Notes under the pieces: model-generated
What the model saw: the letters and a program-made list of their open reading frames with translations, nothing else
What the model was told of the DNA's origin: nothing
Databases searched by the model: none
Assembly (NCBI GenBank): GCA_003140215.1
Contig: PLJL01000004.1
Location: forward strand, 2,204,192 to 2,268,191
Source: Vulcanimicrobiota bacterium
Lineage (GTDB): Bacteria; Vulcanimicrobiota; Vulcanimicrobiia; Vulcanimicrobiales; Vulcanimicrobiaceae
DNA: 64,000 bases
Direction: 5' to 3'
In this document: piece after piece, positions 52,717 to 55,676 of the stretch
Layout: the number at the start of each line of letters is the position of its first letter
How positions within the stretch are numbered: position 1 is the stretch's first letter
Program-made: the position numbers and the translations under genes

Positions 52717-52799
52717 CGATTGAGGCTAGCGGCCCGCGGTAACGCGCGGGTAACGCCGGCGACCAGGGACCGGCCGCCGCCGCCGGAAGAGCAGCTTCG

Positions 52800-53333
52800 A
52801 TGACGACCCCTTCCCTGCACCCCGGCGACCCGGCGCCGCGCGCCGTCTTGGAGCTGCGGATCCCCCTGCCGGCGCTCGTGGTGTGGCTGCGCCACGTCGG
52901 TTGACGCTTCTTCGGTGAGCCGCTCGCGCAGTTGCGCGAGCTCGACGAGGACTTCGCGCGCGCGGGCATCAGCGTTCGGTTCGTCACGATCGGCTCGCAA
53001 GCCAAAGCCGACGATTTCTGCGCGCGCCACAACGCCGCCGCAATCTGCATCGGTGACGCCGACAAACACACCTATAAAGCGATGGGCTTGAGCGATTTCG
53101 ATCTCACCAAGCTGATGTCGACGCCCGCGCTGCTCGAGCGGCGCAACGAAAACCAGGCCGCGGGCTTCCGCCAGGACTGGGGTGCGACGCTTATCTGGGA
53201 CGCGGCGCAGAATCCGGGCGCCGCAGTGCTCGACGCCGGTGGGATCGTACGCTGGGTGCACCGCGGCGTGCATCCCGGCGACTTGCCGCCGATGCGCGAG
53301 CTGCTGGCGCAGGCCCAAGCGGTCCTCCGGTAA
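52800..53333 (+). CDS. Peroxiredoxin-like (PRXL2/SelL-related) protein with in-frame TGA, candidate selenoprotein
   Basis: Starting at ATG 52800, the frame runs LVVWLRHVG, then TGA (52902-52904, codon 35), then RFFGEPLAQLRELDEDF and on to 53333 without another stop: 177 codons. In the AhpC-TSA_2/PRXL2 family the position after LRHVG is the redox cysteine (RHxGC), so TGA sits exactly where Sec replaces Cys in SelL-related redox proteins. A perfect 8-bp hairpin starts 17 nt after the TGA. The rest has the thioredoxin-like fold (VRFVTIGSQAKADDFCARH, VLDAGGIVRWVHRG). A frameshift or broken gene is the alternative. Downstream of the TGA alone, a TTG-started fragment would lack the active site. Confidence 0.72.
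52922..52941 (+). promoter_or_regulatory. Candidate bacterial SECIS hairpin
   Basis: GCTCGCGC and GCGCGAGC pair perfectly around the loop AGTT. The stem begins 17 nt, and the apical loop 25 nt, after the in-frame TGA, and a G lies in the first two loop bases. These are the known requirements for bacterial selenocysteine insertion elements. Confidence 0.55.
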
Positions 53334-53343
53334 GCGACCGCCC

Positions 53344-54327
53344 GTGACCTGGCGGGTGCTGACGACCGCGCGCGGCTTCGAAGCCACGCCCGAGGCAGCC
53401 GCACTGCTGAAGCGCGCCGGATGCGAGGTCGTCGCGACGCCCTATAGCGGGAGCCGTTTCGACTACGAGCTCGGCGGCGACGCGCTCGTCGCGCTGCTCG
53501 ACGGCATCGACGCGCACATCGCGGGTTCGGCCCACCTCACCCGAGACGTGATCGAGCGCGCGCCCGCGCTCAAGCTCATCTCACGCCGCGGTGTCGGTTA
53601 CGAGCGCATCGACCTGCAGGCAGCGCGCGAGCACGACGTGGTGGTCACGATCACGACCGGGGCCAACCAGCACGCCGTCGCCGATCACGTCTTCGGGCTG
53701 TTGCTGGCGGTCGCGCGGCGCACGCTCGAGGCCCATCGTAGCGTGACCGAGGGGCGCTGGGAGTCGTTCATCGGACCGGAGCTGCGGGGAAAGACGCTGG
53801 GCATCATCGGCTTGGGCCGAGTGGGAAAAGGCGTCGCCCGGCGCGCGCTGGGCTTCTCGATGCGCGTCGTCGCAGCCGATCCGGTTGTCGACGATGCATT
53901 CTCGCGAGCGCACGACGTCACGTATCTGCCGCTCGACGAGCTGCTGGCGACGGCCGACGTCGTCTCCATCAACGCCTCGCTCAACGAGACCACGCGCGGC
54001 CTGATCGACCGCCGGGCGTTGCGCCGCCTCAAGGCCGGCGCGATCTTGATCAACACCGCTCGCGGCGGGATCGTTGACGAAGCCGCCTTGGCCGAGGCGC
54101 TGCGCAGCGGACAGCTCGGCGGCGCCGGGATCGACGTCTTCGAGCGTGAGCCGCCCGCCGGCTCGGCGCTTATCGGCCTGCCTAACGTCGTGCTCACGCC
54201 GCACGTCGCGGCGTACACGCACGAAGCGATGGCGGCAGCGAACCTGCTCGCGGCACGCATCGTCGTCGACCTTATGCACGGACGTCTGCCCGACCTCGAC
54301 TGCATCGTCGCCGGGCCGAAACGCTAG
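53344..54327 (+). CDS. D-2-hydroxyacid dehydrogenase (phosphoglycerate dehydrogenase-like)
   Basis: 327 aa from GTG 53344. NAD-binding fold GKTLGIIGLGRVGKGVARRA (about residues 145-164), catalytic Arg in INTARGGIVDEAAL, Glu in GIDVFEREPPAG and His in LTPHVAAYTHEA. It fits the SerA/formate-dehydrogenase-like family. No ACT domain follows, unlike full-length SerA, so it may reduce another 2-keto acid. It begins 10 nt after the peroxiredoxin-like gene and converges on the TIR gene with a 4-nt overlap. Confidence 0.93.
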   Translation: MTWRVLTTARGFEATPEAAALLKRAGCEVVATPYSGSRFDYELGGDALVALLDGIDAHIAGSAHLTRDVIERAPALKLISRRGVGYERIDLQAAREHDVVVTITTGANQHAVADHVFGLLLAVARRTLEAHRSVTEGRWESFIGPELRGKTLGIIGLGRVGKGVARRALGFSMRVVAADPVVDDAFSRAHDVTYLPLDELLATADVVSINASLNETTRGLIDRRALRRLKAGAILINTARGGIVDEAALAEALRSGQLGGAGIDVFEREPPAGSALIGLPNVVLTPHVAAYTHEAMAAANLLAARIVVDLMHGRLPDLDCIVAGPKR

Positions 54328-55676
54328 GGAATCGCCACGGGACCGGTGTCGCCCGGGCTGAAACGCACGTTTTGGACCCACGAGAAAAAGTAGCCCTTAC
54401 ACGTTCGGACCCGTGCGGAATACGTAACCGTCGCGCCGGACCCGACGCGCTCGCGTCCGAGGTGCACCGCCGCCGGGTAGTTCGCCCGTTCGCCTGCGCT
54501 GTGCTCTTGGATGGCGAGATTGAAGTATGCCGGCACCGAATAGTCGTTGTAGACTCGTATGAATTGCGCCCCCGACGTGCAGTTACCGCCCTTCGTATAC
54601 AACCCGGCCGCGTTGAACTGCGAATTCCACTCCGGCGGAGCGTTGCCCATGCGCGCGGGCACCTCCCCGGCCGCGGCGAACCGTGGCGTTGCCGGCGGGC
54701 CGACCGGGAGCCGTCGCGTCGCGACGACCGGCGGCTGCGGGCGATGGAGCAGCGCGAACGCACCGCCGGCGACCACCAGGGCGGCGAGGACGCACACCGC
54801 GACGAATGCTGGGCGCCCCGGTACCAGCAGTGAGGGTGCGGCCGCGCGTTCGACCACGAATGACGGCCCCAGTCCTGCGACCAAGTTCCCCGCCGCATCC
54901 CAGGTGGCCACGCGCAACCGCATCGCCTGCCCCGCTTGGGCGTCGCCCGGCACGGTGACCTCGCCCGAGACTTCATCGCCGGCACGTTGCCGATTCCGAA
55001 CGACCGCCGGGCGCGCGTTCCCGCGTAAATCGACGAAGTCGACCTGTTCCATCGCGGAACCGCCCCGCGGCACGCTGTAACTAAACGCCATCGTCGCGTT
55101 CGCGGTAACCGGCATGGCTGCGATCGCGCTGACGGTCAAACCGCGGTTGGGATCGGCCGGCGGCTCGTGCGCCGGTCGCGTCACGGCGGGGGCCGGCTCG
55201 GGTGCGGCTTCGATGACCGCGCGCTCGGATGCGGCGACCTCCGGAGCGGCGGCTGCGGGCGCATGGCCCGGAGCCGCATCGAGAACGCGGCGCACCAGGT
55301 CGACGAGCTCGTCGAGCCGCTTCTCCATCGGGGGACTCATCGCGTCGAGCCAGTGCACGCGCTGAATGTAATATTCGAGATCACCTTCGGGCAGCACGAG
55401 CTCGATGCGGAACGGAATGATGTTCTTGCCACGCTTGTATGCGAGCTCGAGCTCGCTCAGGACCGCCTCGGAGGCGTTTGCGTGTGCCGAAAAGATCAGG
55501 ACGACGACACGTCCGTGCGCGATTGCGTCAACAAGTTGCCGACCGTAGGGGATCCCGGGAATCGGATCGCGCGGCGCGATCCAGCACCGAATACCGTGCG
55601 CTTCGAGCTGCGCGCACGCGGCGTTCGCTACGATTCGGTCCTGCGCCGAATGGCAGATGAAAACGTCATGCGCCAC
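54324..55676 (-). CDS. TIR-domain protein with transmembrane helix and C-terminal outer domain
   Basis: 450 aa. The TIR domain (residues about 3-135) has HDVFICHSAQDR, CWIAPRDPIPGIPYG, VVLIFSAHANAS and the putative NADase Glu in LSELELAYKRGKNIIPFRI. A Pro/Ala-rich linker (140-185), a beta-rich domain (190-270, FVDLRGNARPAVV), a membrane helix (about 281-302) and a C-terminal domain with two Cys (GGNCTSGAQFIRVYND, VRTCKGYFFSWVQ) follow. TIR enzymes often destroy NAD in antiphage systems; this layout more resembles a receptor. No partner gene is adjacent. Confidence 0.85.
   Translation of the reverse strand: MAHDVFICHSAQDRIVANAACAQLEAHGIRCWIAPRDPIPGIPYGRQLVDAIAHGRVVVLIFSAHANASEAVLSELELAYKRGKNIIPFRIELVLPEGDLEYYIQRVHWLDAMSPPMEKRLDELVDLVRRVLDAAPGHAPAAAAPEVAASERAVIEAAPEPAPAVTRPAHEPPADPNRGLTVSAIAAMPVTANATMAFSYSVPRGGSAMEQVDFVDLRGNARPAVVRNRQRAGDEVSGEVTVPGDAQAGQAMRLRVATWDAAGNLVAGLGPSFVVERAAAPSLLVPGRPAFVAVCVLAALVVAGGAFALLHRPQPPVVATRRLPVGPPATPRFAAAGEVPARMGNAPPEWNSQFNAAGLYTKGGNCTSGAQFIRVYNDYSVPAYFNLAIQEHSAGERANYPAAVHLGRERVGSGATVTYSARVRTCKGYFFSWVQNVRFSPGDTGPVAIP

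Follow-up and report, generated by a model that had tools for sequence, protein, structure and literature searches.

A predicted selenocysteine-dependent redox protein of the SelL/AhpC-TSA_2 type with a near-invariant SECIS-like hairpin in Vulcanimicrobiota

The window, that is, the whole stretch of 64,000 nucleotides that was analyzed, comes from a soil bacterium whose named relatives belong to Candidatus Eremiobacterota (WPS-2), now Vulcanimicrobiota, and whose assembly (3.88 Mb) is 86.7% complete. On its forward strand lies a reading frame of 177 codons with a sole interruption, a TGA at codon 35, which raises the question of whether this triplet ends translation, marks a dead gene, or is decoded as an amino acid. 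An earlier note, made from the sequence alone, had proposed a selenoprotein, and its description of the locus was accurate: the frame is open on both sides of one TGA, the part upstream of the TGA ends in LRHVG, and an 8-bp stem closed by an AGTT loop begins 17 nt 3′ of the TGA (52922-52941). Upstream of the start codon, the letters CCGGAA are found, as they are upstream of L021 and L022. The features of the gene are given in Table 1.

Table 1 Positions of the predicted selenoprotein gene and its elements in the window.
Feature	Position	Strand	Remarks
Possible ribosome-binding site GGAAG, weak	52785..52789	+	10 nt before ATG; sequence inspection
SelL-related/AhpC-TSA_2 redox protein gene (predicted)	52800..53333	+	Complete CDS, 177 residues and TAA stop
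Gly34 codon GGT, directly 5′ of TGA	52899..52901	+	GGT in 22/23 Sec sequences
In-frame TGA, putative selenocysteine codon (Sec35)	52902..52904	+	TGA in 23/23 distinct Sec-type sequences; L031 and L053, with Cys, have TGC
Candidate bacterial SECIS, 5′ arm GCTCGCGC	52922..52929	+	Stem pairing, comparison, folding
Candidate SECIS apical loop AGTT, invariant	52930..52933	+	Starts 25 nt after TGA
Candidate bacterial SECIS, 3′ arm GCGCGAGC	52934..52941	+	Stem pairing, comparison, folding
Cys74 codon	53019..53021	+	Conserved with UxxF motif, 22/23 Sec sequences
Cys83 codon	53046..53048	+	Invariant in UxxF group

The earlier note had staked its proposal on the selenocysteine machinery being present in the same genome; its absence was looked for and is not the case, as all four components were found. 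The selA gene (490 bits) adjoins selB (278 bits, or 306 with a neighbouring piece) on contig C5, selD scores over its cut-off (377 bits), and a tRNA-Sec with the anticodon UCA was detected at 73.5 bits. Two other genes of this genome also carry an in-frame TGA. In the SelD gene itself (L011, G000:C4:386180-387103, reverse strand), it stands in the context SACAGUASKVG, and the loop of a hairpin, GGCGCAG-GTC-CTGCGCC, begins about 33 nt further on; a gene for a formate dehydrogenase alpha subunit (L112, G000:C2:147308-148102, reverse strand) has it within the classical ARVUHGPTV site. Downstream of the latter, a hairpin can be drawn with an apical CAGTTT, close to the CAGTT of the SelL-like gene.

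A close homologue with TGA at codon 35 is present in 21 of 149 phylum genomes; in one further genome, G009, this codon is TGC, and two genomes of another family have a less closely related UxxC protein that likewise contains a TGA. The TGA and the same hairpin occur together in a Planctomycetota MAG (L052, 39% protein identity), while another Planctomycetota MAG (L053) has TGC and lacks such a hairpin. Codon 35 of the homologues is thus TGA or TGC and no other codon. This agrees with the earlier note, which had pointed to cysteine in relatives at this position: TGC was found in L031 and L053 and TGA in 23 distinct sequences, and a non-Cys sense codon or a frameshift at the TGA, either of which would have spoken against the proposal, was looked for in the homologues and not found. 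These 23 distinct Sec sequences, 22 from Eremiobacterota and one from Planctomycetota, form the comparison set.

Each of the 23 TGA-bearing genomes of the phylum has selA, versus 121 (over the cut-off) of the 149 overall; since most of the phylum has selA and the genomes are related, this co-occurrence is supportive but not decisive. In the relative G025, selB and selA are found ~1 kb away from the Sec gene (locus L038, PLFC01000034.1, 3001-6461). The genome with the Cys homologue, G009 (L044/L031), still has selA, so that its Cys form is not explained by a lost use of Sec. In the gene tree, several deep branches are unsure. Neighbourhoods, compared by eye, differ between genera, and no conserved operon partners were seen; in genus g24 only (L045, L047, and L051), the gene stands between surE-like and clpX-like genes, again judged by eye. 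Near the Sec gene of the window, a TIR domain (PF13676) lies at the N-terminus of the protein encoded at 54324-55676 on the reverse strand. A plasmid protein search returned no relative. Redoxin-family matches with one in-frame TGA were also seen at G107:C183, G098:C55, G062:C30, G065:C18, G061:C22, and at other places, and these are perhaps other Prx-like selenoproteins.

The earlier note had further claimed that the hairpin obeys the rules for bacterial SECIS elements, and it agrees with all four constraints of a published bSECIS model (PMC13188914). The model places 3-9 nt in the apical loop and 4-16 bp in the upper stem, where the hairpin has 4 nt and 8 bp; it places a G within the first two loop positions, and the invariant AGTT loop has G second, followed by U; it allows 16-37 nt from the UGA to the apical loop, here 25 nt; and it sets a free energy of at most -7.5 kcal/mol, where the hairpin folded alone reaches -15.4 kcal/mol, a value matched by none of 200 dinucleotide shuffles. 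As evidence for Sec, however, the hairpin in the window sequence by itself is weak, because codon redraws that keep the protein give an 8-bp stem in 3.6% of cases and an equally low energy in 2%; the single-sequence structure is mildly unusual (p about 0.02-0.04) and suggestive only. Folding of the wider region of 59-70 nt gave no signal above shuffles, and an Rfam search at gathering thresholds gave no match within the window. The exact hairpin core occurs once in the genome.

Comparison across homologues was far more informative. Throughout the 23 distinct Sec sequences, codons 42-47 are fixed as CTC GCG CAG TTG CGY GAG wherever the residues are kept: Leu42, Ala43, Gln44, Leu45, and Glu47 each use one codon (CTC, GCG, CAG, TTG, and GAG, respectively), and Arg46 is encoded by CGC or CGT alone, either of which keeps the stem paired. 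The same genes vary freely outside the hairpin codons, and codon entropy is 0.22 bits for the hairpin codons versus a mean of 1.11 bits for other conserved codons (Mann-Whitney p 0.0002, kinship ignored). The TTG at Leu45 is present in 23 of 23 sequences, yet it makes up only ~11% of Leu codons in a five-gene sample. Stem pairing is kept in 97.7% of cells, with one compensatory double change, from G-C to A-U, in L029. Covariation in the stem is slight, six of its eight pairs never varying and shuffles often reaching the observed values, and in so constant a stem the covariation count says almost nothing. Together, the shared TGA and the freeze of synonymous sites argue strongly for a candidate Sec element at this position.

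The window protein matches PF13911 (AhpC-TSA_2) at 36.4 bits, above the gathering cut-off of 27, and stays below the cut-off of the typical peroxiredoxin family PF00578 (17.5 bits versus 26). Its PxxxTxxC motif, proper to peroxiredoxins, is absent, there being no Thr three residues before Sec35. The relation to SelL and PRXL2 that the earlier note had seen holds in part. The model for SelL-related redox proteins (NF040769) matches all 26 aligned members, covers the window protein almost from end to end, and has the RHxG(C/U) active-site region in common with it, but the window protein scores 90.1 bits against a cut-off of 120, which no genome of the phylum passes. SelL carries a UxxU diselenide motif. 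The motif of the window group is instead URFF or UTFF, that is, UxxF, and position 38 is Phe or Tyr (Tyr in L031), which departs from the CxxC of PRXL2 as well. Two further cysteines, C74 and C83, are conserved with UxxF, except that C74 is replaced by Ala in L029. In the phylum family f13, two redoxins (L076 and L077) carry RHFGUIFCRE, a UxxC motif, with a different hairpin and with neither C74 nor C83.

In an AlphaFold model (mean pLDDT 90.2), the protein adopts a thioredoxin fold, with Sec35 in the loop between strand 1 (E25-32) and helix 1 (H39-54), where a thioredoxin-fold active site belongs. No signal peptide was seen by eye. In peroxiredoxin Q of Xanthomonas, C48 and C84, the peroxidatic and resolving cysteines, have a spacing that resembles that of Sec35 and C74; this enzyme (PDB 5ima and others) has a related fold at 16-18% identity. 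Human PRXL2B (prostamide/PGF synthase, PDB 9us9 and 9usa) was the sole PDB sequence match (E 3e-9) and also the top fold match. It uses Cys, not Sec, in a CxxC motif (C44/C47), of which C44 aligns with Sec35 and C47 with F38, and its aligned sequence has no equivalents of C74 and C83.

Could the TGA be a nonsense mutation or a miscalled base in a gene that is dead? A TGA within a frame is the usual mark of a broken gene, and the assembly is incomplete. The same TGA nevertheless recurs in independent assemblies, those of the 21 phylum genomes and the Planctomycetota MAG, no frameshifts were found in the window gene or its homologues, and purifying selection acts on the region 3′ of the TGA (dN/dS 0.08-0.26), which means that this region is translated. 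The conservation of the TGA and the low dN/dS downstream of it refute a pseudogene or sequencing error, whose probability is practically negligible. A functional TGA might still be a true stop that leaves a 34-residue peptide and a separate protein initiated at TTG 52932, and an open frame from this TTG to 53333 does exist. This arrangement is highly unlikely, since the TTG sits in the invariant hairpin and a start there would leave the protein without its active-site loop and with a shortened helix 1, while conservation of the frame continues from upstream right to the TGA, and a Cys homologue reads through this position without a break.

Translation through the UGA could also place Trp, Cys, or Gly there, by genome-wide reassignment or plain read-through; homologues do have Cys at the position, and UGA is in general known to undergo near-cognate read-through. 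However, TGA ends 16 of the 35 long frames in the window (not all of them verified genes) and is thus not generally reassigned, a complete Sec machinery is present, and a frozen SECIS-like hairpin would serve no purpose, so that we regard this explanation as extremely unlikely. The hairpin might also be conserved for a reason other than Sec, such as mRNA regulation or constraint on the protein segment LAQLRE, which is indeed conserved, and the weak covariation would agree with this. Such reasons are very unlikely to account for synonymous sites that are fixed down to a minor Leu codon, for Cys homologues that do not keep the hairpin, and for its agreement with the four bSECIS constraints. On the evidence above, the in-frame UGA at residue 35 is very probably decoded as selenocysteine.

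For the decoding of this UGA as selenocysteine, we infer that SelB with Sec-tRNA(UCA) would bind the hairpin that follows the UGA, and that selenocysteine would be inserted at residue 35 in place of termination. The best reading of the product is a predicted Sec-dependent SelL/AhpC-TSA_2 redox enzyme, which would be a cytosolic oxidoreductase of the thioredoxin fold in the SelL/AhpC-TSA_2 (PF13911) superfamily. A redox role for the Sec35 protein is likely. Sec35 would be the nucleophile that attacks a peroxide or a disulfide, and since Phe holds the second place in the motif, resolution of the oxidised Sec would probably fall to a distal cysteine (C83, or perhaps C74) or to a thiol from outside the protein. 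We put forward the distal Cys as the resolver tentatively.

Selenoproteins of the AhpC/TSA type (PF13911/cd02970) with a UxxS motif have already been listed (PMC9312934, PMC13188914), and the authors of PMC9312934 assign proteins that differ in their Sec motif to separate subfamilies. The UxxS proteins resemble the window protein in their PF13911 domain and in having Sec first in the motif; going by their listed description, UxxF together with C74/C83 sets the window group apart. The group may accordingly form a distinct, Eremiobacterota-centred subfamily with Phe in place of the second Cys, C74/C83 as resolving residues, and an intramolecular selenenylsulfide, unlike the diselenide of SelL or the CxxC of PRXL2, although we would rate this somewhat below an even chance. 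The data fit best a UxxF variant within the known PF13911 selenoproteins. A literature search on Eremiobacterota and selenocysteine found no paper; an earlier listing of the UxxF subfamily is possible.

The locus would add a coherent, conserved group of selenoproteins to a little-studied soil phylum in which the Sec machinery is widespread. Since standard gene callers cut the gene in two at its active site, the enzyme would be missed. The near-invariant hairpin offers a clean natural system for testing SelB recognition of a short AGUU loop. A testable question also arises from the pattern of UxxF with distal cysteines, namely, how the Sec of these enzymes would be resolved.
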